Part shown: positions 32,211-57,470 of the stretch, piece by piece
Numbering within the stretch: the first letter of the stretch is position 1
Layout: every line of letters starts with the position of its first letter
Origin: Thalassiosira profunda
Lineage: Eukaryota > Bacillariophyta > Thalassiosirophyceae > Thalassiosirales > Thalassiosiraceae
Length of the DNA stretch: 64,000 nucleotides
Direction of reading: 5' to 3'
Assembly (NCBI GenBank): GCA_036939355.1
Contig: JALLAP010000006.1
Coordinates: 1 to 64,000 of the forward strand
Position numbers and translations under genes: made by a program
The notes under the pieces: generated by a model
Told to the model about the DNA's origin: nothing
Database searches by the model: none
The model's input: the letters and a program-made list of their open reading frames with translations, nothing else

Positions 32211-32325
32211 AGTAAATGTTTCTATGTTTATGCAAAGTGCCCGTAGAAAGTGAAACGTGGGATCGACTAAACAGCATAACCAATGCATCGATCAAGAGGT
32301 CAGGTGGCTACTGGACATTGCACAT

Positions 32326-33733
32326 CTACCATTTCTTGGTCTCGCGGAGGGCTGCGAAGCACAAGATGAGGGGCGTATTCTATTGCAGAATGAATTGGGA
32401 AGCAAATGTACTCACCCTGGGAGGCTTTCTTCCTCGCTTCTTCGTCCTCGATCTCATACCACAGCCCATCGCTCCCTTTCTTCAGGAAGCGGCCACCGTA
32501 TTTATGCACGCGCTCGACGAGCTCGAGCGACAAAAAGAACTTGCGCTCTCTGTCGGCGCTCCGATTCTGACCGCTGGAGACAACGCAGTGATACGCTGGA
32601 CGCATTCGCTTCGCCTCGTCTCGGAAGCGTGCGTTGCCTTCGTGACGATTCGCCATTCCTCCGCGGCCACAGAGAACGTCCAGATTGGAGAAACCTAGCT
32701 CTCCCTTCTTGCTGGCATCGCGGGTGGCGGGCTTCTTGGCCTTGGGGGCTGTTTTGGCTTTCGTCTTCGCTGCTGGCTTCGGCGTCTCAGAAGCAGCTTC
32801 CGATGAGCCGATCTTGATCTTGACGCCTCTCTTCTTGATCGGCTTGCGGCCGAGCTTGGCCTTCGTCTTCGTTCGCTTCGAGGGCTGGGAGACGCCTTCA
32901 TTTGCAGCGACTACGTCACCCTGGCGCCTCTTCCTCCTGGGGCGTGCTGGCTCAGTCTTCTCCGCCTTGCCTTGCATCGATGAATCCGAGACATTGATGT
33001 TGGACCACTTGGAGGCAGTCTTCGTGATGCGCTGCACTGTCTCTATGACCGAAGGCTGGTGGGCCTCGGGCGAGCTTGCGACTTGCTGGCGGTGCAGGAT
33101 GGGAGTGGCAGCGCCCAAATCAAGCGTGAAGCTATCGAATGGGTGCCGTGGCGCGCCGGTCTGAAGGCCTTGAGATTGGACACTCGTGCGAGTAGGAGTG
33201 TAGACGACAGCGGAAGGGTGGTAACTCACGGGAGTCGGCTGTGTGCCGCTCACAAGATATGAGGCCGGGCTTGGCATCGAGCTTTGCATCGAGGACACTC
33301 CCACAGGGAAGCTGATGTGGAGCCCGTGCCCCTGAACCGAATGTGTTGGATGGAAGGCTCTTGGTGGCGATGCCATGAAGCCGAGAGGCTGTTGCATGGA
33401 GGGATGCATCGACACCCCGGGAGGAAGAGGAGGAGCCATGGATGGATGCAGATGCTGCCAGGCTGGCGTCGCCGCGGCCGCCCCGGCCCTCGACGACTTC
33501 ACGGGCGAGAAGGACACGGAAGCGGACAGCTGGAGGACTTCCGCTCCATCGTATTGCTGAACGATGGGCTGGCCGGCGGCGACGAGGTTTGGTGCATGCT
33601 CGCCGCGCTTCGCGGCCTCGGCGTGCGCCAGCATTTGCAGCTGCCGAGCGCCGGCGCGGAAGTCGTCCGGCGACATGGCGTGGAGCTGCTCCTCGACCTG
33701 CGCCACGAGGCTGCCCCAGTGGATGGAGTCCAT
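32326..33733 (-). CDS. B4: CGRGG-domain (DUF6824-like) diatom protein
   Basis: The ATG at 33733 opens exon 1 to 32416. A 64-nt intron (GTGAGT...CGCAG, 32352-32415) leads to a short exon 2 encoding the end ALRETKKW, matching ALREIKW of A4. Product: about 447 aa, longer than A4 through a Ser/Pro/Met-rich stretch and an extra basic KPIKKRGVKIKI/KAKTAPKAKKP segment. The domain reads DVLCGRGGMANRHEGNARFRDE, ELVERVHKYGGRFLKKGSDGLW. The A4 intron site before KLVERV has no intron here. The central RPAYHCVVSSGQNRSADRER part differs from A4 and is eight residues longer. It is divergent from B3. Function unknown, probably nuclear. Confidence 0.78.
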
Positions 33734-34387
33734 GGCTGATGGTCGGTGCGATAATTATGTTGCAACGGCGGAGCGGAAATGAATTGCAACGGCAGATTTC
33801 GAGTGTGGTTGCGCTAAAGCAGAGGCAGGCCTTTTGTCCCTTGGCTCTATGTAGCATTGCTGCCTCTCCTCTAATTCTTCGGCACATTCATGTCTCATGC
33901 ACATTTGCTTCCGAGAAGATACCACAAAGCTGCACAGAGACGGGTAACCAATCCTGCACAGAAAAAGACCCGCCCTACTACATGCACCATGTGGATTTGC
34001 CGCCGTGCAGCATTGGAGCGAATGCCCAACACTGCTTGGGGCGATGTCTCTGCTTTGCAAAGAAGGGTGCCCCCGCGATAGCCGCTGTGCAGCTTTCGCG
34101 ATGTGTCTCAGTGATGTCTTGGGCCAATCGCGTAGCCGTACAGTAGGTCGGATACCCGGGCTAGTGAAAAGTGCACAGGAATCGCAAGGAACACGAGCTT
34201 CGCCACGCACGCCGCCAAGCAACGTCATTGACGACGAGCGGAGGCCCAAGATGCCCAAGACGTCGCTTTGTCTCAGCGCATAGCCGCGCGAGAGGGGGAA
34301 GGCTCCTCGATGCCACATCTCGCGATGGACTTTGCTGCTCACAATTTTCACCGCCGAGCCTGCACCATCCTCCTTGCAGCCTGCACC
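33734..34387. promoter_or_regulatory. Bidirectional promoter of B3/B4
   Basis: These 654 bp align with 4881-5600. They hold one copy of the ~75-bp unit that is doubled in copy A (33885-33961, with AAGATACC and CTGCACAGAGAC), GCCCAAGACGTCGCTTTGTCTCAG near 34253-34277, and a TTGCAACATAATTATCG stretch near 33759. A promoter role is inferred. Confidence 0.4.
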
Positions 34388-40000: not shown

Positions 40001-41797
40001 TGCGTCGACCGTTCCATCTGACAGAAGCGATTGCTCGATGGAAGCAATCTGCTTCTGCAACAACTGCGGCAGGCCATCCTTTGCTGATTCTGCAGAAGAC
40101 ATGGCAGCATCGTCCAGCATGTTGACGCGGAGCTTGTGACCCGACGACGCTTCAATAGCATACACCACTGGCGATTGCAAAAGGTCAAACGAGACCCAAC
40201 CCACCACGGACGAGTCGGCATCGTCGCGAAAGGCCACGTTGCCGCTGGGCGTGGACACCAGGAAGGGCGACCCCTGGCTTATTTGCGACCCCTCTCTGCC
40301 CAGTTTGGCGCGTGAGTCCTCCTCCTCTGATTCGTTGGGGGCAGGGAGCTTTAGTATCCGATCGCCGGAGCTCGGATGCCGCAGGGCCTCGGTGATGTAC
40401 TCGGTGAACAAGCGCTCAAGCTCCTCCTCTTGCCTCTGCGCCACGGCATCGCTTACTTCGCCGGCCTCTTCCTCGTTTGGTACCCCAAGCGGCGACAGCG
40501 GCTGGCGACCGCCGCGACCCTCGCCGTGGAGCATCTCGTCCACGCTCAGAATCTCTGCCACGGAAAATTCCACGTCGACCGCGCCCTTTTGCAAATCGTG
40601 CACTGTCACCGTATGCTCCAATCGCCCGATCCACACCACATCCCGCCCCTCCAGCGAAGGCGGAAGTTCTTCACCTTCTTCCCCATCCTCCCGCTTGAAC
40701 TTGGGAATCACCCGCAGTATCTCCCCCGTCCTCTCGTCCACCGCGGCCACCATCGCCTTCCGCGACCCGACGAAGAACCGTTGGTGGGGATCCACAAATG
40801 GGGAGCGATCGACGAGGTCGCGGATGTGAGCGGTCGTCGTCAGCTCGTGGCCGGAGGCGTCGGCGTATTCTCCCCCAGTGAGGTACACGGTGCCGTCGAT
40901 CGAGGGGACGGCTCGCCATTGGTGGGCGTGCGGGTAGCCATCGGATTTGGTGGACGTGGAGACCAAAGGGGAGAGGAACTTGCTCCACTCGGTGGGGGCT
41001 CCGGCAACTTCTTTTGAATGCTCCTTCCCCGTATCATCCTGAGTGTGGTTGGGAGTTGCAAGTTGGTCCCGGGACTGCTTCCACAGCACCCTCCCCGAGG
41101 AGCGAGAAATCCCCGCCAATGTCCCGTCAACGGACGAGAGGATAATGACCGAGTCGCCATCGCCAGCATCCGATTGCGAGTTTTTCTGCTCATCCGATGA
41201 TTGCACGCGTATCTTTGGGCGGTCACTTTGATCAACAATGTGATCCCCGTTAACATCCAGGGAGGCATCGACATCCGATAGAAGCATCTCCTCCAAAATG
41301 TCGTCTTCGTCTCCTTCGCCGCTTTGCAACGATATCCCCTCATCATTCAGAGACGGCTTCATGGATGAATCTGCAGACGAGGTGGCCACTGATGCCGCAG
41401 TGCATCCAAAGGGTGACGAAGAGATCATGCTCAGGCACATCAACAGCAGGGCCACCCTGGAAAGGGACGCTTTGGATGCAACTGACGAGGATGCAGCGAG
41501 GGCTGCAACCCTGCCGCGCCTCTGGCACGTGTCGCATGTGGACGCTGCGGCATGACGGGTCCTCCACCGATATCGATCTCGGATGTGATTTTGCATCGGC
41601 ATACCATTGCGGGATGCGCTTCTTGGGCGGCATCGACTGCAACTGCTGCGGGAGGCGCCGGCTCCCGGCCCTTGCCTCATGCTGTTATTGCAAATTGCAG
41701 CTGCGACGCCGTCGCCGTCAGAATCCACAGCCTCGCCAACAGATTCCTGCCTCCGCCTCTTCCTCCTCGGGGAATATGGTTCAGAGGAGGCGTCCAT
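37001..41797 (-). CDS. IRE1-like ER kinase/RNase with C-terminal CCCH zinc finger
   Basis: The ATG at 41797 gives about 1598 aa in one exon; the frame above it has only a GTG. Order: basic N-terminus and signal-anchor-like stretch (VALLLMCLSMISS, near residue 115); IRE1-type luminal beta-propeller with SSVDGTLAGISRSSGRVLW and PSIDGTVYLTGGEY (about 215-760); membrane span near 786; kinase with LGYGGHGTIVYKG (near 845), HRDLKPQNILL (near 972) and SDMGLGK (DMG for DFG, near 1040); KEN RNase domain (about 1209-1322: LKFLCDLSDRIE, YDPSSVRDCLRMIRNKHHHYDEL). An acidic linker follows, then an added CCCH finger, C-x10-C-x7-C-x3-H (RTRLCNHWDVSEG...KCIFAHGPVELRV), and a Lys-rich tail. IRE1 senses unfolded proteins and splices or decays mRNA. 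The fused finger is unusual. Confidence 0.88.
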   Translation of the reverse strand: MDASSEPYSPRRKRRRQESVGEAVDSDGDGVAAAICNNSMRQGPGAGASRSSCSRCRPRSASRNGMPMQNHIRDRYRWRTRHAAASTCDTCQRRGRVAALAASSSVASKASLSRVALLLMCLSMISSSPFGCTAASVATSSADSSMKPSLNDEGISLQSGEGDEDDILEEMLLSDVDASLDVNGDHIVDQSDRPKIRVQSSDEQKNSQSDAGDGDSVIILSSVDGTLAGISRSSGRVLWKQSRDQLATPNHTQDDTGKEHSKEVAGAPTEWSKFLSPLVSTSTKSDGYPHAHQWRAVPSIDGTVYLTGGEYADASGHELTTTAHIRDLVDRSPFVDPHQRFFVGSRKAMVAAVDERTGEILRVIPKFKREDGEEGEELPPSLEGRDVVWIGRLEHTVTVHDLQKGAVDVEFSVAEILSVDEMLHGEGRGGRQPLSPLGVPNEEEAGEVSDAVAQRQEEELERLFTEYITEALRHPSSGDRILKLPAPNESEEEDSRAKLGREGSQISQGSPFLVSTPSGNVAFRDDADSSVVGWVSFDLLQSPVVYAIEASSGHKLRVNMLDDAAMSSAESAKDGLPQLLQKQIASIEQSLLSDGTVDACSGGRPGECRALEAVGFGARGSVVGALQNGQIYALPLGERIARPQTLPLGLPQPHSAASDMVNAKVGLDGKPTLNTHHAIGFHGRESMGSDDVDSGDRRPIHLDSSEDKQSCTPASPLYPGCLIGASLMLGNLLDVDGNLDMASVFASSDLDYDLYLDMLEAGTSRKRGNVWQQIVKIMSSWIAPTVAFIFVLSFELGRRTRERRKAEAKARSALLGEDGITAEGFNEAQQNSASNGQGGVIQLTDEILGYGGHGTIVYKGVVDKRQVAVKRLLAMYHASADREISLLIESDGHPNVVRYFLKEMRGDFVYLALELCDMSLNDLIVSLGKLRNARKENFHLAPGDTDDFESATKSLLFQIASGVRHIHSLRIVHRDLKPQNILLALRSAKPKSLIEEAAKPEDSGSSDSEADTMDDTAHSTCSDTNAILECFKKSEYVPKISDMGLGKQLAGQSSFGLSTLGTGSVGGPGAGDAGAGAGSVGWQAPEVMAQRWSPETSNVNEATSDSSPLEASPLEVGAINRTSRSVDIFSLGCIFYCTILPGSHPFGEWYEREANIMKNAPNKEDLEFVSPDAGDLILSMISRDAKARPTAEEVCEHPFFWSLAKRLKFLCDLSDRIELCDSQGSDEDNRTRPLLIMAIESGAVDIFGTSWEKKLDPELIEASLSRRTYDPSSVRDCLRMIRNKHHHYDELPAKLKSRIGSSTDGLSSYVMRTFPRLLMHCYHFCVTNLSPDDSLSLDYNLPIAGHSSKDVEKDASLAIGDLSALEEESKHLPLETIPDADDEQEKAEEHRDEDDVCSAAPELEDDSRLDHDAQMPEKAPEPELPQDLSSPRAEEEQPQPMKSDLAGIVVWAGSATAKELNCRGWCRSDEEWTQRIDAKLRKRDSNLARCADDPKFRTRLCNHWDVSEGTHCPMRKKGKCIFAHGPVELRVKEGKRHRWGTLVRKDGLCANARASGGEDTYGAAKSIENTRKEQGQWNTKTQKKGRKQTPKKKKDAAS

Positions 41798-42411
41798 TGT
41801 TGGACGATCGCCGTTCCTCTGGGTTCCTGGCGAGGGGGCGCACGTGCTCAGTGCATGCACTGTGATGAGCTATTGCACCTCGAGTTTGGGTATTTGCACC
41901 CACTGATTCAGGACCAACGTGTCATATTGCCCACCGCACCCACTGCACCGATTGCCGTGCTAGAGAGGTGCACTGCCCTTGTGCCTTGTGCCTGAGTTGC
42001 GGCGTATCGAGTGCACGTCCAACATCTGAGCTGAGAATGGGCGGTGGGCGGAAATGAGTGGCTCTCACACAAGAAAAGGGAGTCCGTAGCATTAGCACCC
42101 CACCGGCGTCTCTAACACTTCCGCCGAGATGCGAACTGCGGCGTCTTTCGCCATGAAAGTCCGCCCGACTACCCGGTGGCGGTGACAACCAGGTTTCTCG
42201 GTCGACACGAGCTCTTCCAGAACCATGTTCCTGGAACGTCGACGGGGGTGGCCGCCGAGCGGCGGCGTCGACGGGGAGGAGGCTCATTCATTCTGCATTG
42301 CGCACAACATGACACATCAACAACCATCACGGCCATCAGCCTTCCATCCTCTTCGACCAGTTGCAAACCATACTGCTACGAACCTCTATTATTGCTCGCG
42401 CCTTCTCCGAC
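41798..42411. promoter_or_regulatory. Divergent promoter region of IRE1-like and reductase genes
   Basis: These 614 bp lie between divergent starts. An imperfect 22-bp palindrome, TTCCAG-N10-CTGGAA, sits at 42215-42236 and contains GAA/TTC blocks like a heat-shock element. TTGCAA lies near 42361. No gene is visible. Confidence 0.4.
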
Positions 42412-45400
42412 ATGAATACGCGCCCTGTGCTTTCTCTTCTGATCTCGGCGGCATTGCAAGCTTGCAACGTCAAGGCGCTGCAAAAGTACACGCTGCCCTG
42501 GTGGCATCCCGAGATACAATACATTGCAGACGAGCTGGTGAGCATTGTGGAAAGAGGGAGTGGCGACGCGTTTAGATGATATTGGTTGTTCTGATGCTAA
42601 CACTTGCCCATGGTGCATCCTCCGCAGATTCCCGCTCCTCCGAACCACCCTCCGCTGGACGATGATTCCGCCTTTCAGGAGTTTGTTCGGGCGAATACCG
42701 GGAGGAGCCATCGTTTCTTCGATGAATCAAATGTACGTTTCTCAAAACGCTGGTTCTCTGCTCGGGCCCGCGTCGTCGTTCTTCTTGTGATTGTGCACAT
42801 CTTACGCACTGTTTCTCTTCCAACCGCAGGGATATTTGCTTGCACCGTGGGATCTCCCCAGCGGTCATCCGAACTGCGATCGCTACTTCGAGTTGGAGGA
42901 GGTCCCGTACGACGATTTCCCAACCATTTATTTCGACCACCCGGACATTGAGGAAGCCTACACGAGTGGGAGGCCACTGCCGAAGGGTCACCCTTCGTTG
43001 AATGCGTTGTTTGAGCACTTGCTTCCTGCAGGGCATCCAAACATCGACGATTTGTTCTCCGACGAGGAGAGGGTAGAGCTCCCGGAGTGGCATCCGGACC
43101 TGTCCATGATGCTGAACGTTGAGGATCTGCCCAACGGAATGCCTTTGCTCCCGGTCTACTTCGACCATCCAAATATCACGAAAAGCTACGAACAGGGCCG
43201 CTCGCTGCCGAAGGGACATGCATCAATCGCGGACATGCTCGTAGATTATTTGCCGCCGGGCCATCCGCTCAACCTCGACGAGATGATGATGGAGAATCCG
43301 GCGGAGCATCCTCTGCCCTTCGGACATCCAGATTTATCGAGCTTTGTCTCTGTTGAAGCACTGCCGAAAGGGCTACCATCCGTCCCGGCCTACGCCGGCC
43401 ATCCGGATATCGCTGAGGCGTATTCTCGAGGCGAGCCAATGCCTGGAAGTCACCCGAGCGTTGCCGACATGCTCGTGGAATATTTGCCTCCTGGCCACCC
43501 ACTGAACCTTGACGAGATGCTGGTGGACCCTGCAAACTATCCTTTACCCTTTGGGCATCCAGACATGTCTACCTTCATTTCTATTCGAGGATCATCCTCT
43601 GTGCCGGGTGTCGAGCCTCCAAATAGTGGGCAGTCTTCGGATGATGGACAGTCTTCAGATGATGGACAGTCTTCTGCTGGTGGACAGCCATCATCTGGTG
43701 GAGAGCCTTCAGTTAGCGGACAGTCATCCAATGATGAATTGCCTTCAGCTGGTGGACAGTCATCGGCTGAGCCCATCCTTAGCTTTTCAGTGTTCCACGG
43801 CCATCCAGACATTGCGTCGAGAGAATTCTTGCCTGTGAAGAACCACCCGCCAATCCACCATCTCTATGCAGATGCGCTGCCTCCGTCACACCCTAACATC
43901 GACGATTTGCTGGAGGAGGGCTTCACACTACCCAGCTGGCACCGACCCATCGATTCGACCATTACGCAGAGAGACTTGGCCTTGTCTCCGGGGGCGTTGC
44001 TGTCGTATACATTTGCCGCTCTCTTCTCAGTGGCTGTCCTTGTAAGGCAGGGAAATAGGTGGAAGAACTCTAGGCAAACGCAGGAGATCTTCGTGGACGA
44101 AGGATCGCTGGGTGATACGTTGGAAGTCGGCACTGTAGGTACCATCGATGTATGCCCGATGGACAAGTCAATATCGATCGACGGCGAAGTCGAAGTGGAG
44201 CTGGCGTCGGCCCAAAATCTTGTGCCTGGCTTGCCGAGGCTCAACCGGCGACAATACGCAGCCTTGCAAGATCACAAAAGCCGTCATGACAGAGGCGCCG
44301 AACCAGTTCGCTCCAGCATCATTGCATATCGGGAGAAGCGGCAACATCGTACGTGCGTGGCTGCGTGCCACAAGCGCATGCCTGGGACGAAAGAGTCGGT
44401 TTGGGACGTCCTCGTCTGCATCGCGTACATTGCGGTGAACGTTGTAGTGCTGGTGGCGAGCCCTTACGACTTCGACGTTGGCTTGGGATCGTTGGCGGCG
44501 GCCAACATTCTGATCGTCGTCCTGACAGCGACAAAGAACAGTGCACTCACGTGGTTCTTGGGCATCCCGTTCCACCAGATCCTTCTGTTTCATCGCTTTA
44601 TCGGACGACTGATGGTTCTGGCTGCGTTCATCCATGCTTGCTTCTACTTTTACCGCCTCCTGGAGCTCTTGTCTCAACGCGCTTATTTGACCGGGTTCAT
44701 TGCACTTATGTGCTGTCTGGTCTTGGCTGCATCCTCGCTGAATTGGATCAGGAGGAGATTCTTCAACGTCTTCTATTGGAGCCACATTGCCTTCATTGGG
44801 CTGTTTGTCTGCGTCTACATGCATGCAGCGGGCGCCCGGCCTTTCGTCATCGCGTCCGCTGTCGTCTATGGTATTGACAGATTGCTCCACGTGCTATGGA
44901 CTCAGTTGCCTCGGAGAACGACGAGCATTAGGAGAGTGGGGCAGCGCGACACGGCTTTTGTCAGAGTTGACAAGCCCCGCCTCCTTCGTCGTCTTGATCA
45001 CTACAAGGCGGGGCAGTACGCTTTTGTCAACTTGCCGGAGCTGTCTCTGACCGAGTGGCACCCTTTCTCTGTGGCATCGGGCCCAAACCAACCCTTCCAG
45101 GATATGTACATCAAAGCTCTTGGCAATCACACAAAACGAGTGGTCGAGTACGCCGGTGAATGCGAAGCAAAGGAAAAGCAGGCGCTGATCCGCGTCGATG
45201 GGCCGTACGGCCGCCCACCGTTCCGGTACAAACGGTATGGAGCTCTTCTTCTCGTCGGGGCGGGCATTGGAATCACGCCAGTGATGAGCGTGGTTAGGGA
45301 TGCTTACGAAAGAGGCGAAGAGGATATTCACAAAGCGGTCTGCCCTTGCATCAAGCACCTCACTGTTATCTGGATCATGCCTTTTCGGTCAGAGACTGTC

Positions 45401-45715
45401 CTCTTCCTGGAAGAGCTTTTGGCGTATCGGGAGCGTTCGCTTCAGGACCCGTTGCTGCCCGTACTTGACGTTCACATCCACATCGACGGAGAGCCTCCAG
45501 ATCCCGACGCCGCCTGGCCAATTTCATATTCGCGACCGGACTTTTCGTCGGTCATGGAGGGTTGCACCGAGCAGTGCAAGCAGGATGGCGCTTCATCCGT
45601 TCTTGTGTATGCGTGCGGTCCTGGGAGGATGATTAACCAGCTGTGGGACGCCTCGATGAGGAAGAACCACAAAGGCCTCCGGGTTGACTTTTATCATGAG
45701 TCTTTCGAGTTCTAG
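42412..45715 (+). CDS. Ferric-reductase/NOX-like enzyme with GHP-repeat ectodomain
   Basis: Three exons: 42412-42537, 42628-42732, 42830-45715, with introns of 90 and 97 nt, all phase 0. Product about 1038 aa. A signal peptide (VLSLLISAALQACNVKA) is followed by about a dozen degenerate repeats of the form LPxGHPxxxxx (residues about 30-330), a Ser/Gly/Gln-rich stretch and another GHP block. A membrane region holds the two haem His pairs (HRFIGRLMVLAAFIH, spacing 14; HIAFIGLFVCVYMH, spacing 13). The cytosolic part has the FAD motif WHPFSVASGP, DGPYGRPP, NAD(P)H motif GAGIGITPVMSV and CGPGRM. It should move electrons from NAD(P)H through FAD and haem to an outside acceptor (ferric/cupric ions or oxygen). 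The His-rich repeats suggest metal binding. Confidence 0.88.
42860..43580 (+). repeat. Degenerate GHP coding repeats
   Basis: LPSGHPN, LPKGHPS, LPAGHPN, LPEWHPD, LPKGHAS, LPPGHPL, LPFGHPD, PGSHPS, LPPGHPL and LPFGHPD follow each other; a longer unit of about 100 residues (FDHPN/GHPDI...SYxxGxxxPxxHxSxADMLVxYLPPGHPLNLDEM...LPFGHPD) appears twice. The layout points to stepwise tandem duplication inside the ectodomain. Confidence 0.85.
43624..43770 (+). repeat. Coding GQSSxxG-type short repeat
   Basis: About six degenerate 18-24 bp units encode GQSSDDGQSSDDGQSSAGGQPSS-type sequence within the reductase ectodomain. This is a likely length-variable linker. Confidence 0.8.
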
Positions 45716-46086
45716 CAGTGCTGACAGTATTACCGGACGATCTCTGTGCAGGCATAACTTGCTCTCGCGATACAACAGATGCACTGTAACCTAATTGAAC
45801 AGCATCAAAATCGGAGACTTCGGCTGATAGTACAGGCTGGGGCCTGGCATCTTTCTGTCCTTTCTGATGGGTCAGGAAGGCAAAGAGGCACCTCCTTACT
45901 TCCGTCCCTCCCTCGCTCCCCGTAGGCAGCTCTCTCCCTCCTTCCCTTCTCCCTCCCTCCCTCACAGCTTGCCAACGACATTTCCTCGCTCTCGACTCCC
46001 GCCCAGCTCCTCTCCGCGGACGCGGCCGCGGCACCCCCTATCCGTCGCCTCAACCGCCACCACACCTCAAAGACACATAGTAATCA
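45716..46086. other. Intergenic region with CT-rich tract
   Basis: These 371 bp lie between same-strand genes. A pyrimidine-rich run (CCTCCTTCCC...CCCTCCCTCCCTC, near 45900-45965) precedes the coiled-coil gene by about 120 bp and is a plausible promoter element. No gene seen. Confidence 0.35.
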
Positions 46087-49000
46087 ATGTGGTCGGTCTT
46101 GCGGCGCTTTGGTGACGCCGATGCCGACGCCGACGGCGGCGGCGGCCCCTCTTCCTCAGACAATCCGTTTACCTCGCACGAGATGAGCAAGGCCCCGATG
46201 TCGACGGCCGTGCCCCTGATCTCTCCTGAGATTGAGGGCGGGCGCGGCAAAGGAGGGGCCCGAGTTATGGGCGATAGTGACGAGTGCAGTGGCATAATTG
46301 AGACGAGGCAGCCAGAGTGTCTGTCGAGAGAGGGTGATGATTTGCAATTCAGAGGCAACGACAACGGCGCCGATGGCAAGGGCCAACAGAACGTCACCAC
46401 GATGTCGAAAGAGCGGCAACTGAATACGATTGGGATGGTATCCCCCGAACAAGATGGCGTGGCCAGATCGCCGTCGGCGACAGCGGTGGAAAAATCTGCA
46501 ACGGCGTCTGCCTTGACAGTGGCGACGATTACCCCCTTGGCGAGCACGAAGCCAGCCACGGTTGCAGCCGCTCAATCTGCAGGCAGCACGTCCTCCGCCC
46601 ACAAGGCCGCCGCGACGGTCTTTCAAACGCCCCGCAAATCCACCCCGGAGGCATCCGACCACGCCAAAAACACTGAACACAAGACGGGCATCACCCCCCA
46701 CCTCGCCGCCCTGTCCGCCGACATTCCCTCGCCCTACTCCCCCCTCACGCCCGCCACCCGGTCGATATTGGAGACGTCGCCGTTCAAGAGCTCGATGCAG
46801 GTGCTGGACGAGAGATTGCAGAGCGTCCTAAAATTGGAGGGGAGGCTGGACAGCAGGATCGAGGGCGCAAGGGAGCGGATGTGGGAGGGGGACGACAGCT
46901 TCGACAGTGGGAAGGAGAATGCGTGCTTTGGCAGGGTGGATTCGGTGGCGAGATTGGATACGAGCGCCGAGACGGAGGAGGGCAACGGAGGCTGTAGTAC
47001 AAGCAGATACAGCGGACGCAAGAGCCTGAATTACCTGTCGACAGAGAAACAAGCGGGGAGGCCGGATGACACGTTGAACGGCAGCCTGTCCTCCTCGAAC
47101 GAGCTGCGGAGGGTTCTGTGGAGCGATACCCCCCGCAACAAGTCCAGTGCATCCGACGATCTCGATTGCAACGACGCGTTGATGAGCCCCAAACTAAGTC
47201 TGATCGAGCAGAACGAGCGCGTCCATCCACTGGCATCGCCCGCCCATGGCGAACGAAAGAGCTCAGCTTTCGTGGGAGGCGTGCTCCGGCGGATGGAGGG
47301 ATCGGGCAAGAAGGGCCAACGCCAAAATGCAACTCCGGACTCAAGTGCTCAGCGTCCACAGCCAGACCAGGATATCGATACGGCCGCCCTCCAACGTCAG
47401 TTGGCCCAGTCGATGACGGCGCGGGGCCAGCTGTGGGAGATTGTGTCCGATCTGCGGGCCCAGCTGAAGGACGCGACGCGTGCACGGGATGCCTCCGCGG
47501 AGGAGGCAGCGGGGTACAAGAATGAGGCAAAGGCTCTGGAGAGTGAATTGCAGACCGCGTTGGGATCCGCGAAAGAGAGGGACGAGGAGGCGGAGGGGCT
47601 GCGGAAGTGTCTTGAGAAGAGGGATGTGGCGTGCGAGGACCTGCAGTCTACTTTGAAGCTGAAGGAGAACGAGATACGAGAGCTGAATTCGATCTCTGAG
47701 AGGAGGGAGAAGGAGCTTGCCAGCGTGCAGCGCCAGCGACACGAAGAGGGTCAGACGCACTTGGAGGCGATTGAAAAGGTCCAGGCTGAGCTTGAATCGA
47801 CGAGAACATCTCACGCTGAGCAACTGGGGCAGGCCCAGGCATCGCACGACGAGGAAGCAGAGCGGGTGCGCCAAGAGGCAGAGTCATCGTTGGCCATTGC
47901 TTTGGAGAACAGAGTTCGAGAGTTGTCCGCATCTCATGCCGAGGAGCTGGAGAGGCAGCGGTGCGAGGCCGAGAAGCAACGAGAGGAGGCAATCGAACGC
48001 GTGCGCAAGGAGTCGGATGCATCGTCGGTCCTTGCACTGGACGAGAGGGTTCGAGAATTGTCTGCTTTGCACACCGCGGCCTTGGAGGAGCAAAGGGTCG
48101 CGCTCGAAACGACGCACCGAGCCGAGCTTGACCGCCTTCGTCATGAGATGAAGAACGAGGAGCCTACGACGAGCGCCGACGAGCCGCCAAGCATCGACGA
48201 TAGCGAGGGTCGCCAACCAACCTCGCAAGTGGATGACACCCTCTCATCAGACGACTTTTCCTTCTACGTTGGAGACGCAGAGGAGGGATTTCGCACTTCC
48301 GAGTCTGTTCACGCCAGTGATATCAGCGAGACAGCAAGCGAGTCGGAGATTGGCGATTACACTGGCCCCGAATCCTTTGGCGAGAGTCTTAGTGTGATTG
48401 ATGAGAGTGCTGTTGAGGAGGAAACGATGGAGGTGGGGCCAGAAATGCTGTCCGGCCTTAATCTCGAGGAAAGTGCGCCAAATCTACCCACATCAGACGT
48501 TGCGAGTGTCCAGCAAGAAGCCAACAAGTCATCCCTCAGTGCCACCGAATGCGAGCTTGCAGCCGCCCGGGCACAATGTGATGTGTTGTCTGCTGAAGTA
48601 GAAGGTCTCATGAAATCGCTCGCCGAAGCGGCAACAGAACGAGAAGACCTCTTAACTTCTCTGACTGATGCCAGGCAAAAGACTATGGCGGTTGAGAAGC
48701 AGCTTGGTGTTGCTCGCGCAGAGAGGGATGATTCGGCATCACACGTAAGTGAGTTGGAAGATAAGCTGGGTGCGCAGTTGGCCTCAAGGGATGGCGCCTC
48801 CCAGGACCTGAAAGAGGCAATCAAGTCGCGTGATCACTTCCAAGGACTTGCGGCAAAGCTTGCGATCAACGTCATACAGCTGAAGATGCAATGTAAGATG
48901 GCCAGATCAGAGTTGCAGCAGCTCGATTGTTCGTCATCGCAGTGTGGCACCCCGTGTGTCACCACTGCTGAGAAAGATGTGTCGCTTGAAACCACAGAAA

Positions 49001-50886
49001 GAGGCGCCACGGAACTCGATAGCATGGATTCTTCTCCGTCGATTCCAGAGGAGAAACTGCAATGGATGGTGGCCAAACTCGCAACAGCCCTGGTGAAAAT
49101 GAAGGGGCGCGAAGTGAACTTGTCGAAGGAGAAAGCGGCTCTCAATGAAGAGATCCTCGACCTGAAAAGGGCGTCAGGCGACGCGCAAAAAGAACTCGAA
49201 GCAGCGTCAAAGGAGAAGGCCGAGCTCAATTGCAGCATGAAAGAACTGTCTCATGAGAAAAAGAAGCTGCAGAACGAAGTGCTTGCGTTGGGCGACAAGG
49301 TTGGGGAGCTCGAAGCCAAGTTGCAATCCACTCACGAGGGGACTCGTGAAATCGAGGACTCGGTCTCTGCGAAGGACGACGAAATCCAACGGCTCCACGC
49401 CAACCTAATGACCAAAACTGGAGTGGTGCTCGACCTGAAGCAGCAGAACAATCAGTTGTCGAGTGACATGGCTGCCGTTCATAGTCAGTTGTACTCGACA
49501 GAGGCTGAGCGAAAGGAAGCTAGAGCGCGTCTGCAGACGGAAATAGACGCAGCATCCAAAGCCAAAGCAGAGTTAGAGCAAGCAGAAGAGGCCATGTTGG
49601 AGCTCCATGCCGACAAGGTCTCGCTGTCAAATCACCTCGCGGCCGTGTTGCAAGAGAAGAGCCATGTGTCTGCCGAAATCGATAGCCTGCACGACACCGT
49701 AGCGTCGCTCGAAGTGGAGAAGGAGTCCCTCTCGGCCATGTTGCAGGAATGCCAAGCAAAAACACAGAGGTTGGGGAACAGAGTCGTAGCTCTCGAGAGT
49801 CAGGTCACAGAAAACGACAAACTCATCTTCGGCATCGAATCCCAACTGGCGTCGAAAGTAGACGAAGCGGAAGGACTGCTCAAGACTGTGAACTCCCACG
49901 AGGCTACACTGTGCGCTCTGCGCTTGGAAATGGCGTCTCTTCGCGAAGAGAAAGCCGGCGTCGAGGGAACGCTGTCTAGTTTGCACGGCAGACTTGACCG
50001 TGTAATGGGCGAACGCGATGGCCTCGCTTCCCAACTGGACAACGCAATGAAGGAGCTGGAAAGTCTTCGGGCAGAACGAAACAACCTTGCTGCCACTGTA
50101 TCCTCTCCGATTGGCAGATTCGCTGAGCACGATGCCGAGCTAGAGGGGAATCCAAACGGAGAACGTTTCGTCACTCCACTTCGCGGCATCCGAGAAATCT
50201 TGAGCGCGACGAGCATTTCAGAAGAAGACGTCGACCGCGTCTGCGACAAGATGAGCAAGGCCCAAATCATCATCGGTCAGATTGAGCGAGAGAGGAAGCT
50301 GCTGAAGAAAGAAGTCAAGCACCTCCGGGCGGACCTCCAAAAGGCTCGAGACGAGTTGGCCGCGGCCAAGGACGACAACAAGACGATCAGCCGGCAGGCG
50401 GTAAAATTGAGAACCGTCGTGAGCCAAGCGAGGACTGTGATAGAGAAGGCGGAAGACGAAAAGAAGCGACTGGCGTCGGACTTGGACAACGCCCAACATG
50501 CGATGAAGCGAATCAAGACAGACTCGTCCAACTCCTACCGCGCGATCGTTTCCCAAAACCAGGAGGAAATCATCAAGCTGAGGACGGAGCTGAGGCAGAA
50601 GAACGACCTCCTCCTATCGATGAGCATGGAACAACAGTCGCAGTCGACCGGGGTCCTCGATGGCGTCGCCAGCCCTCCACCAAACGAAATATCGAGGTTC
50701 GACGTCTCGTCCGCTACAATAGCGGCTGCGAACTATCGCACTCCCCGAAACCAGGCGCCCAAACCTCCCGTGGTCAGCTCGAAGGAACGCTTCAAGATCG
50801 AGAAGGGCTCCATGTTCGGCGGCGTGCTGAAGAGCACGAAGAAATCAGGACGGAAAGGAGCCAAGTATCGCCACGTCGAGGGTTAA
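46087..50886 (+). CDS. Large coiled-coil protein, unknown
   Basis: This is a single-exon 1599-aa protein from the ATG at 46087. The first 350 residues are disordered and rich in Ser-Pro/Thr-Pro sites (IPSPYSPLTPATRSIL, TPRKSTPEA), like CDK targets. From about residue 415 to 1000 and again 1010 to 1510 it is almost continuous heptad coiled coil (LSASHAEELERQR, ELEAKLQSTHEGTREIE, VKHLRADLQKARDELAAAKDD). An acidic break lies near 720-790. The C-terminal 80 residues are basic (KKSGRKGAKYRHVEG). No motor or other catalytic domain. The size and layout resemble centrosomal, golgin or spindle-scaffold proteins, but no assignment is possible. The frame is intact and uniform throughout. Confidence 0.8.
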   Translation: MWSVLRRFGDADADADGGGGPSSSDNPFTSHEMSKAPMSTAVPLISPEIEGGRGKGGARVMGDSDECSGIIETRQPECLSREGDDLQFRGNDNGADGKGQQNVTTMSKERQLNTIGMVSPEQDGVARSPSATAVEKSATASALTVATITPLASTKPATVAAAQSAGSTSSAHKAAATVFQTPRKSTPEASDHAKNTEHKTGITPHLAALSADIPSPYSPLTPATRSILETSPFKSSMQVLDERLQSVLKLEGRLDSRIEGARERMWEGDDSFDSGKENACFGRVDSVARLDTSAETEEGNGGCSTSRYSGRKSLNYLSTEKQAGRPDDTLNGSLSSSNELRRVLWSDTPRNKSSASDDLDCNDALMSPKLSLIEQNERVHPLASPAHGERKSSAFVGGVLRRMEGSGKKGQRQNATPDSSAQRPQPDQDIDTAALQRQLAQSMTARGQLWEIVSDLRAQLKDATRARDASAEEAAGYKNEAKALESELQTALGSAKERDEEAEGLRKCLEKRDVACEDLQSTLKLKENEIRELNSISERREKELASVQRQRHEEGQTHLEAIEKVQAELESTRTSHAEQLGQAQASHDEEAERVRQEAESSLAIALENRVRELSASHAEELERQRCEAEKQREEAIERVRKESDASSVLALDERVRELSALHTAALEEQRVALETTHRAELDRLRHEMKNEEPTTSADEPPSIDDSEGRQPTSQVDDTLSSDDFSFYVGDAEEGFRTSESVHASDISETASESEIGDYTGPESFGESLSVIDESAVEEETMEVGPEMLSGLNLEESAPNLPTSDVASVQQEANKSSLSATECELAAARAQCDVLSAEVEGLMKSLAEAATEREDLLTSLTDARQKTMAVEKQLGVARAERDDSASHVSELEDKLGAQLASRDGASQDLKEAIKSRDHFQGLAAKLAINVIQLKMQCKMARSELQQLDCSSSQCGTPCVTTAEKDVSLETTERGATELDSMDSSPSIPEEKLQWMVAKLATALVKMKGREVNLSKEKAALNEEILDLKRASGDAQKELEAASKEKAELNCSMKELSHEKKKLQNEVLALGDKVGELEAKLQSTHEGTREIEDSVSAKDDEIQRLHANLMTKTGVVLDLKQQNNQLSSDMAAVHSQLYSTEAERKEARARLQTEIDAASKAKAELEQAEEAMLELHADKVSLSNHLAAVLQEKSHVSAEIDSLHDTVASLEVEKESLSAMLQECQAKTQRLGNRVVALESQVTENDKLIFGIESQLASKVDEAEGLLKTVNSHEATLCALRLEMASLREEKAGVEGTLSSLHGRLDRVMGERDGLASQLDNAMKELESLRAERNNLAATVSSPIGRFAEHDAELEGNPNGERFVTPLRGIREILSATSISEEDVDRVCDKMSKAQIIIGQIERERKLLKKEVKHLRADLQKARDELAAAKDDNKTISRQAVKLRTVVSQARTVIEKAEDEKKRLASDLDNAQHAMKRIKTDSSNSYRAIVSQNQEEIIKLRTELRQKNDLLLSMSMEQQSQSTGVLDGVASPPPNEISRFDVSSATIAAANYRTPRNQAPKPPVVSSKERFKIEKGSMFGGVLKSTKKSGRKGAKYRHVEG

Positions 50887-51004: not shown

Positions 51005-54000
51005 TTACAGGTTGAACCACACGCGGACATTGTGGCGAGGCTTCTCGCCGATGCCGTTCTTGAACGAATCCCGGCCGTGGGCAAACGTCATGTTGTTGCA
51101 GTAAACGATGTCGCCTGCATCCAACTTCATAGAGACGACCTTTTCGTCATCAAGGGCGCCATCGAGCGCGTCCATCGCAACAGTCAGGAGAGGCGAGAGC
51201 TGAACGTCACCCTTTGTGTGACCACTCTCGATCCACTGCCTCATGTAACGGAAGCGTACGCGGTCCTCACCATCTCCACCCTCCTCAAAGATGGGATATG
51301 CGTTGTGCTGAATCCGAAGCTTCAGCAAGTCGGGATTCCTTGCGAGGCATTCGAGGCCGCTCCCAATGCCCTGGCCGGACCCATTCTCAAGAATATCCCG
51401 AGGCAGAGCGCGGAACAGCTCGTGCAGCAGAAACTTGGGAAGCTTCGACCGCAACGAGACGAGGGACGACGCAGCATTGCTCAAATGGAGCGCCCCGCCT
51501 TCCGTAGCTGGATTGATGCACATAAGGCCAACACCCGAGTAAGCCCTGTCAGCCGAAGCGCCGTCAGTGTGCCAAGGGGCTTCCGCCTTCGTGACGGAGA
51601 AGAGAACATTGTCGGCACTGGTGTCGAGGCCTTTGTCAACAACGTCAAAGAGACGGCCTCTCGCCTTGCCATCTACCTTGCCAATGAGTGAGGTCAGGAT
51701 GTAGTACGCAAGCTTGGCCCGTCCAGCCGCGCCCACCTCGGAGGTGCCAGCACTGTGAGATGCCATGTCCAGCCCAGTGATGTGGACTGCGCCGACTTGA
51801 TGGGCAAGGCGAGCTCGGACCTTAGTGGCGAACTCAGCCACAAGAGTCAATTGAGACGCATCTTCGGCAGTTGGCTCCCAAGTGTCTTCCGTCATGCCCC
51901 CATCATGAAGGGCAACCGCGCGTCCGACGAGCTCCGACGACACGTTTGCCGGCATCGGAACGGACAGGATCTTCTGCGCGACGGACTTCTCAAAGTTTGT
52001 CCACTTGACTGCCCTCGGAATGCGGCCAACCACTGCGCTAGACGCCGGCTTGACGACATCGAAGACAATGTGAAGCGGCGAGTCCCTCACGCTCTCGAAA
52101 AAGTGCGGGTGCGCCGCGACGTGCTCCGGAAGGACACGGGCCTCGTGCATTTTAGCCAAATCGAAGCCGACGGCCGACAGCGTTTCGAGGTAATCCGAGA
52201 CCGTCTTGAACAGCATCTTCACGTTTAGATCGCGGCCGTCGAGGGTACGAATAACGCCGGCGAACTTTCGATCCCTCAGAGAGAAGTAGGAATCGGCCGT
52301 TGCGTCGCCCTTGGCGAACGTGAAGGTGTCGCTCGACGTTTCCTCGCTTCCATGTGCGTTCAGCATGAATGGATGAGGGACAGAGAAGACGAAATGGCCA
52401 CCGGGCTTCAAGGACCTGTAGATCTGGTCGCAAATCGCCTGTACACGAGAAGAGATGAGCAAGTGAGTGACGTTGTGAACAGTCCTTCTGAGAAGCACGG
52501 AACTCTCACCTTCATCTTCGTGATCGAGGTGTAGTTGAAGAGGAAGATGGCGATGCCCATATCGAAGGAACCCTCAGTGAGCATCCGCCCAGGGACGAGC
52601 CCGAGCGTAGCTGGCATTTTGTTGAACGTCTCGACGATCTTGTCGGCATCGCTGGTGATGTAGGTCTCGAAAGCGCTTTTGGAGGGGTTAGCGTTGGCTT
52701 TCTCGATCATTGCAGAGCTAACGTCAAGCCCCACGATCCTCTTCGCACCCATCTCCACAAGCTTTCTCGCCCCATACCCTTCTCCGCAACCCACGTCGAG
52801 GACATGGGCACCTCGTACGAACGGGCTGCACATGTCGAAAACGACCGGACGTCCCGTGAAGTCCGAGAGGCACGTGGCCCCCTTCCGAACCCAATTGTTG
52901 CTCTGTTTGTTGTAGAGCTTGGCGCTGTCTTCGCCCGAGTGGCCAGTGGGCGGGAAGATGGCCTCGACAAAACGATTGAAGAACTCGACACGAGCTCGTA
53001 GCACGGTGTCCACAGCTTCGGCAATGCGAAGGCGTTTGTTCTCGGTCGTCGCCAAATCTACCACAATGTCACGCATGTGATCGGCGTGCTCTGAGCGACA
53101 GGAATGAAAGAAGAGAGATCGTTAGAGACATGGCCATATATCACACACAAGTGCAATAGCAAGACGTACCGACATCCATATCGATGTGAAGCAAGAAGAA
53201 GGCCAAATCTTGCTTGGAGATTGGGCCATGTGGGTCCTTTTCGGCCACGACGCGGAGAAAGGCCGACAGCTTCGAATAAGTGGAAGCCACGAGAAGCTCC
53301 GAACCGAAATACATGGCTGCGATGGCAGTCTCGGCCGTTGCTCCCAGGACTGGATTGCAGGCAAAGTCGAACGCGTCAACAAGTGGCGAGGCGATGTACT
53401 CGCACTGCTCCGGGGTCAACGTTGGATGTTCGACTAGAGCTCCTTCGACCGTCTTGCTCAGGTCCAAGAGCCGCTCGCAACAGCGCACGTACAGCTCCTT
53501 GTGCGGGACATTGCAAAGGAGCGCGGGGTCGAGGCCCAGCTTCTTGATCATCGCAACCGTTTCATCGTCATAGATGCCTTGCTCCTCCTCCAGATTCTCT
53601 TTCAGCACCTCGACGTGTTTCCCGGAGGAGTCTTCGGCGGCAACCAACGCAGTGGTGCTGATCAGATGAGAGCAGAAGGTGGAGGTGAAGGCGCGGTAGG
53701 CAAGCATGAAGTTCGACAGCTTGGCCAGAGTTCCTGGCAGACCGCCCCACGATCCCATTGAAAGGGAGGTGAGCACGTGGTGCTTCAGAGCATCGTGGCC
53801 CAGGACAGTGTCGTCTAGAGCCGAAACGAAATCCTCCGACGACGACAGAAGAGGATCAAACACCGTATTGGGAAGACTTCCGCCAAAGACAGTCTTGTGG
53901 TCGATGGTGCCCTCGACCGTTGTTTTGTTGTAACGAAGGAGCGACGATGCCACCACTTCGAGGTCGACTTCCGTCTTGTTCGTCATGAACGCATCAACGA

Positions 54001-54840
54001 CGGGCGTCGTCTCGGGAGGGAGAGGATTGTCGTCATCCTTCTTTTCTTCCGTGTCGATCGACGAGAGTCGCCTCACGAGATTGCCCACGGCGTTCCTATC
54101 CAATGAGTTTCGCCTGCCGGAATTGGCCACGGCAGCCTCATCCTCCGTTGGCAGTGCTCCTTCAAAGAGCACCTTGACGTGATTCTGGGCACGATAGTTG
54201 TAAGAGTGAAATAGTGCATAAGAAATGCGCATAAGATATGTGCACATGATATGTGCAAAAGATAGCAACGAGTGACGATGGTTACGAACGGCTGCGCCAA
54301 CTTCTCATCACCACACATGCACACATCTTCTCCTGTCGATACAATATGATCACTTACCGTCAGGGCCAGAGCCGTATCCATCGGGTTGTCGCACGTCGTG
54401 TACGACGGGTGATACGCATACAGGCATCGCAGCGCGTTCCCATCGAGCGCACCCTTGTCGAGGGCGTCCGAGAGAGGCGCACCCCGCGCTGCATCGGGGG
54501 CGACACTCGTCCGAATCGACGTGGATTCCTTGCACATGGAAATCAGCTCGTCGAACAGCCCGCTGGCCCTTGAGGCTTTCTCGGGAGGAAGGATGCTCGC
54601 GAGGAGATCCACGAAGTCCTGGCGGCCAAGGCCAGCGACGCCGAGCGCCGCCAGGAGGCGGTCGAGGTCGGCGGCCGCCTCTTCGGCGCGGGCCGTCAGG
54701 AGCACGTGGCCCGTCTCCTGGGCGCCGAGGATGGCATTGGTGGGCATCTCGACGGAGCCGCCCGAGTGGTTGGGGTCGCCGCCGCCGGGGCTCCGCCGAG
54801 CCGCCGTCGCCGCGCGGCCGAGGGGGTTGGACGGAACCAT
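51005..54840 (-). CDS. Three-domain enzyme: HO-like oxygenase, methyltransferase, TauD-like dioxygenase
   Basis: Four exons (54840-54358, 54184-53170, 53090-52510, 52438-51005) with introns of 173, 79 and 71 nt; all junctions keep frame and give about 1170 aa. Residues about 310-530 look like a haem-oxygenase-like (di-iron) helical bundle: TAIAAMYFGSELLVASTYSKL, then HIDMDVEHADHM, formed across the intron and carrying the expected His/Glu/Asp ligands. A class-I SAM methyltransferase follows (VLDVGCGEGYGARKLVEMGAKRIVGLDVS, FDMGIAIFLFNY, LKPGGHFVFSVPHPF). The C-terminus is a TauD/TfdA-like Fe(II)/2-oxoglutarate dioxygenase (APWHTDGASADRAYSGVGL with H-x-D, MTFAHGRDSF, RHNVRVWFNL). Together they suggest a single-chain tailoring enzyme for a small molecule. 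Substrate unknown; the N-terminal 300 residues are unassigned. Confidence 0.82.
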
Positions 54841-55279: not shown

Positions 55280-57208
55280 TCAAAACGAAGCGCCCTTTGC
55301 AACTTTATCGAGAGCCGATGCAGTCGCCATTCGTTGATACTCCTCGATGGGAAACACCAGGCCAGGATGTGTACCCGGACGAATCTCCAGTACAGGCAAG
55401 CCGCCCTCTTCCTGCTCATTGCCACTGCTCGGCCGATACTGCAATGCCCGGTAGCAAGAGGAGCACATTGGCACGCCTTCCAGGTGGACTCGATTGGACG
55501 CCTCGTCCAAACCCGGTGGCGCGCCATCTGAGAGAGGAGCTCCAACCACCACAACCGATGCGAGTGAGAAATTGCAAGCCGAGCAAACGTGCCGCGGCTG
55601 CGGTCCCCATGTGTCGTGGAGGATGATGGGCGGCTTTCGCTCGTTGCCATTGCCCCAACCCGTTGCATTGTGGGTGTTAATGCCAGTGACGTATACCGCC
55701 GACTCGTTGGCGAGGCTCCACAAATTGTTGTCCGGTCGCAGCTCCAGCGGAGTTTGGGGAGGGACGAGCATGTGGAAATACCGCACGCCCAATCGGAGGG
55801 ATATGTCTTCCAGCTTCATTTGGGACATGGGCGTAATTTCATTGCGGGATTGCAATCGAAGGAATTGCCGCCGAGGCGTCAGAGTTGCTTTGCCCTTTGC
55901 TGGCGCGGGCCCTTCAATTAACTCCGATTCCTTGCCGTCCAACCACCCTCGAATGGCGTCTCCCGCCTTTGTTCCCAACTCTCCGCAGGTGTAAAAGGTA
56001 TCCTCGATGAAGAACACACCGGCGCAAATCCCCTCCTTTTGCTCGTTGCTTCCACCGCCATTGCCAGCGGTGCTTAGGGAGCATTCCACCAGCAGGCGAT
56101 GCAGATCCAGCAACGTATGAGAGCCGTGCAGCTCCACCTCCATGCGGTTGCTGTCCACCCCCGACCCGCGCTTGAGGTTATGGGAGTGGCGGAGGATCTC
56201 GAAGCGGACCGTGGTTTGAAGTGCCGCGGCAGATTGTCCGGCGCTCCCCTCTGCTGATTCTCCATTAGTAGTGGCGGCGATGGCACCACCCACAGGATAG
56301 GAATGCCGTTTGCGGACCCGCAGCCGTCCCAGGGAGTGGGCGTCCATTCGATTGTACCTGGCCAGCCATTCCGGCAGATTGTTCTTTATCGCCAACGTGT
56401 GCTGGCATCCGTGAGAAATCACTTCTCCGTCGTCTGCCTCATCCTTCCCACTTTCATTCTTCTTGGCACCGCCCAGGGCATACAATCTCTCCAGCTCATC
56501 CGCCGTGCGCACGGCGCGAAACACGTGTCCCAATTCCTCGCCGTAATCCAGCGTTTGCGTCGGATCCAGAAGAGAGACCACCTTCGGCCGATGATGACCG
56601 TCATTATCCGTTGCAGCAATTTCGGATGCCCCCCGTCGTTTGCACGCATAGTCGAAACCTTGCGGCAGCAGCCGCTGCTGCCGCCGGTCCCCCCGGGGCG
56701 CCGCGTCGAGCAGCAGCTCGTGGTTTTGCAGCGGTGCCCTGCCTCCGCCAGCACCCCCGTCGCTCCCACTTATTTCTGAAGTGGGTCCCCCCTCCTCGAC
56801 GATGACTCTGGCGGCCAGATCGCTCCACCGCCCGACGCCCGCGGCGACCTCGCGGTTGACGAGCTCGTGCATGGAGGGTACGATCAGGTCGGTGCAGTCG
56901 AACGGATCCACATTGCAATCCTTCCGCTCTGCTGTTAGAGATGTGTCGGCGAGGGCCCGCCGACCATCTCGTAGGGAGAGGAGGGAGCCCCACCGCCCAG
57001 CGCAGCCCTTGGCGGTCTTGACCGTCGCGACATCGTCGTTGCAAGGGGCAATTGATGGGAGCTCGGCGTCCCCTCCGGTGTGCTTCTCCACTCGCTTTCT
57101 CTTCCGGCCGGGTTCGCCGCCGCCACCGCCGCTCTTTCCAGCGACGGTAGGAGCAACCGCGGGGGTGCCGCCGTTGGCCTTGGCCCTCCGCCTCCGCGTT
57201 TGCACCAT
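55280..57208 (-). CDS. SNAPC3-like snRNA-activating complex subunit
   Basis: The ATG at 57208 gives 642 aa. The N-terminal 280 residues are basic, then low-complexity. The C-terminal half matches the SNAP50/SNAPC3 core: FEILRHSHNLKRGSG, HGSHTLLDLHRLLVEC, GVFFIEDTFYTCGELG, KLEDISLRLGVRYFHML and a terminal Cys zinc site, HVCSACNFSL...VPMCSSCYRALQY. SNAPC binds the proximal sequence element of snRNA promoters for RNA polymerases II and III. The protein is longer than the animal one (about 410 aa) through its N-terminus. It is divergent from the patatin gene with 160-260 bp between starts. Confidence 0.85.
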   Translation of the reverse strand: MVQTRRRRAKANGGTPAVAPTVAGKSGGGGGEPGRKRKRVEKHTGGDAELPSIAPCNDDVATVKTAKGCAGRWGSLLSLRDGRRALADTSLTAERKDCNVDPFDCTDLIVPSMHELVNREVAAGVGRWSDLAARVIVEEGGPTSEISGSDGGAGGGRAPLQNHELLLDAAPRGDRRQQRLLPQGFDYACKRRGASEIAATDNDGHHRPKVVSLLDPTQTLDYGEELGHVFRAVRTADELERLYALGGAKKNESGKDEADDGEVISHGCQHTLAIKNNLPEWLARYNRMDAHSLGRLRVRKRHSYPVGGAIAATTNGESAEGSAGQSAAALQTTVRFEILRHSHNLKRGSGVDSNRMEVELHGSHTLLDLHRLLVECSLSTAGNGGGSNEQKEGICAGVFFIEDTFYTCGELGTKAGDAIRGWLDGKESELIEGPAPAKGKATLTPRRQFLRLQSRNEITPMSQMKLEDISLRLGVRYFHMLVPPQTPLELRPDNNLWSLANESAVYVTGINTHNATGWGNGNERKPPIILHDTWGPQPRHVCSACNFSLASVVVVGAPLSDGAPPGLDEASNRVHLEGVPMCSSCYRALQYRPSSGNEQEEGGLPVLEIRPGTHPGLVFPIEEYQRMATASALDKVAKGASF

Positions 57209-57470
57209 CCTCTATGCACCAGCGGTCGATGCCGCCCTTCCCGCCGCCGAATTGAAGGTGAAGGTGAAGGAGAAAGGGAGCGATGGATGGAGGTAGATTT
57301 TACTGTATTACCCGAGCGAAGGATTCAAGCAGCTGATAATCTTATGAGATTCAGCCGAGTACTTTAGTATGAAGCCGTTTCTTTCAGCGGACTGGAGAGG
57401 AGTTGACACAATTCGTTTGAACAGCCGCCGCAGCCGGGGGTGGGGCAAGTCGATCGATCGGGACAAGCGA

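Follow-up and report, generated by a model that had tools for sequence, protein, structure and literature searches.

A minus-strand gene of the diatom Thalassiosira profunda was described, from its letters alone, as joining a haem-oxygenase-like, a methyltransferase and a TauD-like domain. The locus raises the question of whether a single eukaryotic chain really holds all three enzymes and, if so, what they might do together. We examined the gene within the whole stretch of 64,000 nucleotides in which it lies (the window), and compared it with relatives from protein and genome searches. The window protein is a member of a conserved family with an unusual enzyme architecture that has a bacterial gene-cluster counterpart; its component kinds of enzyme are already known.

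Gene model and genomic context

Four exons of the minus strand join to give 1170 codons without an internal stop. Exon 1 (54358..54840) encodes residues 1–161, an N-terminal region corresponding to the one that carries EF-hands ahead of the haem-oxygenase-like dimetal oxidase (HDO) domain in some relatives, with no EF-hand recognised in the query. Exon 2 (53170..54184) supplies residues 162–499 and the first base of codon 500, including the bulk of the HDO domain; exon 3 (52510..53090) completes codon 500 and continues to residue 693, covering the end of the HDO domain and the larger part of the SAM methyltransferase core; and exon 4 (51008..52438) encodes residues 694–1170, the end of the methyltransferase and the TauD-type Fe(II)/2-oxoglutarate (2OG) oxygenase, followed by the stop codon (51005..51007). 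All three introns are GT-AG, have a GC content of 0.43–0.49 and are of lengths not divisible by 3: intron 1 (54185..54357) has 173 bases (GTAAGT...CAG), intron 2 (53091..53169), which splits codon 500 within the HDO metal motif, has 79 (GTACGT...CAG) and intron 3 (52439..52509) has 71 (GTGAGA...CAG). Retention of intron 1, 2 or 3 would bring an early stop after 255, 508 or 726 residues, respectively. Where the exons meet, after residues 161, 499/500 and 693, no residues are gained or lost relative to single-frame relatives in the 16 of 55 alignment rows inspected. The proposed four-exon model is thus borne out by its introns and by ungapped junctions against one-chain relatives.

Might the parts nevertheless be separate neighbouring genes, and the fusion a read-through artefact? 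Some shorter database relatives do lack the TauD or the HDO part. However, the exon frames are linked only via splicing within conserved sequence, exon 2 extended without splicing lacks the metal ligand H501, and many relatives of approximately 1000–1250 residues are one chain, some of which carry a transcript label or the name of a diatom. We therefore consider an artefact highly improbable. Transcripts showing separate genes, which the preliminary description had named as the outcome that would count against it, were not seen among relatives: the transcript-labelled P0026 and P0032 and the diatom protein P0022 (a ‘Thalass...’ entry, taxid 67004, now Conticribra (Thalassiosira) weissflogii) are single chains with all three sites.

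The gene is flanked by a long open reading frame (ORF) at 46084–50886 (+) with a weak match to a crescentin-rod (coiled-coil) family and, on the other side, by a SNAPC3-matching ORF at 55280–57211 (−). No pathway partner was found by Pfam among the nine window ORFs scanned, and the window yielded no Rfam or tRNA match. Elsewhere in the window, an ORF at 37004–41869 (−) combines protein kinase and Ribonuc_2-5A domains, as IRE1 does; a TLC ATP/ADP transporter (30150–32207, +) adjoins a DUF6824 protein (32303–33754, −); and a ferric-reductase-like protein with FAD- and NAD-binding domains lies at 42791–45712 (+). A search of the 21.8-Mb assembly (1366 contigs) with the Haem_oxygenas_2 model gave no match and missed the window gene itself, as expected for a domain that is split and low-scoring, and so is no proof of a single copy. 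Exon 4, searched against the assembly, matched itself only.

Three domains and the HDO metal site

The domain order of the window protein is HDO, SAM methyltransferase and TauD-type 2OG oxygenase. Pfam scans gave 55.3 bits for Methyltransf_25 and 53.2 bits for TauD (residues 898–1167), both against a cut-off of 27, while Haem_oxygenas_2 scored 25.2 bits, below its cut-off of 28.9, a sequence-model criterion that forms no part of the HDO definition. That cut-off was passed by all three bacterial HDO proteins scanned and, among six rescanned relatives, by P0016, P0038, P0041, P0051 and P0046, with P0001 missing it; all six matched the methyltransferase and five matched TauD, the exception being P0046, which is labelled partial. 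Motif I of the methyltransferase (DxGxG) is present as LDVGCGEGYG (residues 597–606, exon 3). The TauD part shows the features of the TauD/TfdA family: an HxD...H triad (Fe ligands H983, D985 and H1147), the distal 2OG arginine (R1161), a score above the Pfam cut-off and, in a model of relative P0012, the fold. All three folds are visible in the model of a relative with 44% identity. The Pfam matches, the ligand sets and the relative's model agree with the three domain calls made earlier, and the predicted structure, albeit of a relative, contains the haem-oxygenase-like bundle on which the first of them depended.

The HDO ligand set of three histidines and three carboxylates is complete in the query (6/6), and the same six columns are invariant in 20 bacterial proteins. 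On the minus strand, the ligands are E362 (53582..53584), invariant in a 23-row alignment (A1) and equivalent to E83 of the bacterial proteins; H389 (53501..53503), E457 (53297..53299) and D498 (53174..53176), each assigned from alignments plus a codon check; H494 (53186..53188), which opens the motif HIDMDVEHADH (residues 494–504); and H501 (53086..53088), the first complete codon of exon 3. Intron 2 lies within codon 500, between D498 and H501, and the motif is indeed formed across it as claimed, with H494 and D498 coming from exon 2 and H501 from exon 3. A dimetal cofactor with O2 activation is predicted for the domain. In the 3H/4C subgroup of HDOs (SznF-like), the seventh ligand is a Glu on an auxiliary helix; in two alignments (A1 and A2), read as sequence columns only, the stretch from the first Glu to the first His contains no carboxylate that is invariant. 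For the CADD-type self-sacrificing pABA synthase, the sacrificed residues given in an HDO review are Tyr27 and Lys152 (PMC13108848).

A family of relatives in phytoplankton

Three protein searches returned at least 54 relatives (44, then 5 new, then 5 new); the first two scored only the approximately 8,000 candidates sharing most words, so that the lists are lower bounds. Labelled members include proteins of Skeletonema marinoi (P0020 and P0038) and Thalassiosira exigua (P0021), and the partial sequence P0046 is from Prorocentrum cordatum. In the alignment of the query with its 54 relatives, all three active-site sets are intact in 31 of 55 sequences, the HDO set in 43, the methyltransferase set in 53 and the TauD set in 44. 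Many of the missing sets are gaps in short sequences. This holds for most of the 12 proteins without all six HDO ligands, with P0019, P0040, P0044 and P0054 carrying other residues. A single position is changed in P0035 (methyltransferase) and in P0054 (HDO), P0042 lacks the HDO and methyltransferase sets, and the P0041 transcript has an isoform, P0050, in which the TauD set is not intact. P0044 (1009 residues) keeps the methyltransferase and TauD sites, with HDO ligands not seen in the alignment. EF-hands score above the Pfam cut-offs ahead of the HDO domain in P0016, P0038 and P0041, and are absent from P0001, P0046 and P0051 at E 0.001 and, at E 1, from the query. The existence of a family, and the EF-hands of some members, go beyond what the preliminary description had noticed.

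A bacterial three-gene cluster in the same order

Scanned once with two peptide patterns, prokaryote genomes gave at least 75 loci among the matches listed. Of these, 72 match only around the methyltransferase and three bear on this system: L002 (a Myxococcota MAG), L003 (Microbulbifer variabilis) and L004 (a Crocinitomicaceae MAG). In L003, the HDO, methyltransferase and TauD ORFs (266, 256 and 311 aa) overlap end to start, and the M. variabilis genome contains a second whole trio (L082), the two HDO proteins being 65% identical. Searches of related genomes with the bacterial HDO proteins (E 1e-20) matched 1 of 369 genomes in the class of genome G002 (G002 alone), 4 of 144 in its family (G002 included) and 36 of 399 in the order of genome G003 (G003 included). 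The HDO is therefore rare in the former class, and present in roughly 1 in 11 genomes of the latter order.

We compared 38 HDO loci: L002, L003, L004 and L082, with 34 more from 31 of the 35 other genomes of the G003 order and three others of the G002 family. These comprise 25 full trios, two HDO–methyltransferase pairs (one, L126, at a contig end) and 11 loci with the HDO alone, four of them near a contig end (L107, L109, L114 and L122). In 21 of the 25 trios, the genes share a strand and follow the fusion's order (HDO, then methyltransferase, then TauD); the other four have the HDO on the opposite strand. Within the 21 ordered trios, HDO and methyltransferase overlap in 14, are 6–12 bases apart in six and 772 apart in one (L112, with a cupin-family gene between), while methyltransferase and TauD overlap in 19 and are 2 and 3 bases apart in the others; ORFs were counted from the first possible start, which exaggerates overlap. 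The view that such enzymes usually occur as separate proteins in bacteria is thus borne out, in the concrete form of an adjacent cluster in the fusion's order.

No further gene was found to travel with the trio. Among ORFs of at least 110 aa within 6 kb of the HDO in the 25 trios (374, reduced to 177 by dropping those mostly covered by longer ORFs), 22 neighbour families occur in at least three loci and none in more than eight. Each is confined to one of three groups (L127–L136; L082 with L137–L139; L106 and L110–L112), so no neighbour family of this size is common to the trio across bacterial lineages and no fourth gene accompanies it. A gene of one family sits beside the HDO in nine of the 38 loci (L004, L107, L108, L112, L120, L121, L123, L124 and L125), and its L004 member (9691–10449), the only one scanned with Pfam, is a cupin. 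Only two of these nine are trio loci; the other seven have no methyltransferase or TauD gene nearby, which suggests a second HDO pathway with the cupin-family gene, perhaps SznF-like. In L002 (9479–12808), the gene after an HDO–methyltransferase pair is ATP-grasp-like and overlaps the stop of the methyltransferase (PF02786, E 0.00099; 19.1 bits, with the cut-off at 19.8). Next come glycosyltransferase-like and 2OG-oxygenase-like ORFs, both named by eye and the latter without a Pfam match. Beyond the cupin and the ATP-grasp-like and 2OG-oxygenase-like ORFs of L002, the neighbours of the bacterial HDO genes gave no clue to a substrate.

Fusion and cluster proteins are related

Trees were built for each domain, the ‘eukaryotic’ rows being relatives from protein searches, mostly without an organism label, and long branches being present. 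For the methyltransferase, a quick tree of 50 eukaryotic rows, 27 rows from HDO loci and 26 of 39 outgroup rows (those above 60 bits) separates the outgroup from the rest by one branch (support 100) and the 27 bacterial proteins by another (88). Two label changes are needed for the eukaryotic proteins, with one also compatible. With P0019, P0040, P0042, P0050 and short pieces left out, 42 eukaryotic and 25 bacterial TauD rows split at 95, and 44 eukaryotic and 38 bacterial HDO rows at only 62. Judged by sequence, the fusion is related to the cluster proteins in every domain, and the joining probably happened only once. The phylogeny suggested earlier as a check on gene transfer therefore bears out the relationship, though the trees cannot tell donor or direction. 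A scan of viral contigs with P0012, which reaches close relatives only, gave no match. Against a viral structure library, the bacterial HDO had two matches below E 0.001: a Satyrvirus ‘heme oxygenase’ (5.3e-4) and a Yasminevirus protein (6.2e-4).

Proposed function and alternatives

We think it rather probable that the protein is one chain with three catalytic modules that act in turn on the same small metabolite, the eukaryotic equivalent of a joined bacterial cluster. The HDO, with its dimetal site, would use O2 to oxidise the substrate (by C–C cleavage, desaturation or N-oxygenation), the class I SAM methyltransferase would methylate it on N, O or S, and the TauD-type oxygenase would hydroxylate or desaturate it. 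Since the characterised HDOs closest to this one take amino acids as substrates, the most likely substrate would itself be amino-acid-like: an amino acid in free form, possibly a basic, lysine-like one, or a derivative. The fusion gene would be the counterpart of a bacterial HDO–methyltransferase–TauD cluster whose genes became joined, and in relatives with EF-hands ahead of the HDO, Skeletonema among them, calcium may control activity. The gene model, the domain order, the conserved ligand sets, the recurrent bacterial cluster of that order and, on relatives, the folds are observed; sequential action on one metabolite, an amino-acid substrate, the order of the chemical steps, calcium control and the direction of any gene transfer are inferred. 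The preliminary description's undescribed small-molecule pathway fits, while its chemistry remains a matter of inference.

Other readings share part of this evidence. The trio could modify a peptide or protein side chain, with the HDO acting as MboA does on a tripeptide. DUF3050 (PF11251), an HDO-fold family (PMC4520260), is matched by the L004 HDO, P0016, P0041 and P0051 in Pfam scans and by P0011 and P0012 in precomputed lists, and there is a weak profile match to an entry named DUF3050 protein (9vwb, E 0.0066). MboA, which belongs to the mangotoxin operon, is an HDO whose target is a peptide side chain (PMC13185094). However, since no neighbour family spans the bacterial groups, there is no shared precursor, ligase or protease of at least 110 aa within 6 kb of the trio HDO, and a precursor peptide would have to lie in shorter ORFs; we regard this reading as unlikely. 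Another route would run from N-methylation to N-oxygenation, giving an N-hydroxy, N-nitroso or nitro amino acid of the streptozotocin kind. SznE is the methyltransferase of streptozotocin biosynthesis. Structural comparison ranks the N-oxygenase HrmI first, level with BesC and CADD, and the cupin-family gene adjoins the bacterial HDO as described above; SznF itself joins an HDO to a cupin and works on N-methyl-arginine (PMC13108848). We hold the streptozotocin-like route, too, to be improbable. Pfam scans up to E 1 found neither a cupin nor PF04115 in the query.

The family is present in diatoms and Prorocentrum, lineages that include DMSP producers, which brings a DMSP-type sulfonium synthase to mind, with the methyltransferase making DMSHB and one oxygenase decarboxylating it oxidatively. 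How DMSHB is decarboxylated has yet to be learnt, according to PMC11306096. Yet two oxygenases exceed the need of that step, and the fused DMSP enzyme DsyGD has the ureidoglycolate-lyase-like PF04115 domain that the query lacks (PMC11306096). A sulfonium synthase is accordingly very unlikely. A DsyGD-like fusion specifically is ruled out by the different decarboxylase domain.

Returning to three modules acting in turn, the algal fusion is mirrored by a bacterial cluster of the same order, and the three enzymes therefore belong, we believe, to one pathway. This points to a hitherto unrecognised small-molecule pathway common to algae and bacteria, and the bacterial counterpart puts the pathway question within reach of three small proteins. 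Neither fusion nor operon is described in the title or start of the abstract of any of the matches listed from a mostly open full-text literature. The HDO review, in the part available, credits a myriad of bacterial species with members, and the words ‘eukaryot’, ‘alga’ and ‘fusion’ were absent when its text was searched (PMC13108848). A Haem_oxygenas_2 domain is already on record in an alga: the accessible part of PMC5509433 tabulates a weak match for a green alga, with no comment on function alongside. A more ambitious and doubtful possibility is that phytoplankton possess a single-chain, three-step natural-product enzyme, calcium-gated in some diatoms, headed by a eukaryotic HDO and matched by a bacterial operon. 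It would convert a common amino acid directly to a metabolite that is methylated and oxidised at N or C, and this product would serve in the plankton as an exchanged compound, an osmolyte or a chemical weapon.

Comparison with known systems

CADD (CT610), BesC, HrmI and MboA share the haem-oxygenase-like helical fold with the query, whose HDO differs from them in being eukaryotic and fused to a methyltransferase and a TauD domain. Six positions of CADD, up to H88 and in its FTEHEEADVRH stretch, align with the ligand positions of the query's family, and serve as ligands in CADD; in the family, the spacing from the first Glu ligand to the first His ligand is approximately 20 residues longer than in CADD. 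The TauD part has, in the model, the same fold as the TauD/TfdA Fe(II)/2OG oxygenases FrbJ, TtnM, AsnO, clavaminate synthase and KDO1. The HxD...H triad and distal arginine of those enzymes are present in the query's family, which also has the conserved segments PRDVLENG and RYMRxWIE; to our knowledge, all five are free-standing. ToxA, XrdM and related class I SAM methyltransferases have the fold and Pfam families of the query's methyltransferase, ToxA being approximately 22% identical over the model; the comparison does not point to a substrate. DsyGD of Gynuella likewise fuses a SAM methyltransferase to a next-step enzyme, although its second domain is PF04115 rather than HDO or TauD. SznF resembles the query in joining an HDO to a second, mononuclear-iron oxygenase in a methyltransferase-containing pathway; its partner domain is a cupin, whereas the query has TauD in that role, carries the methyltransferase in the same chain and is eukaryotic.
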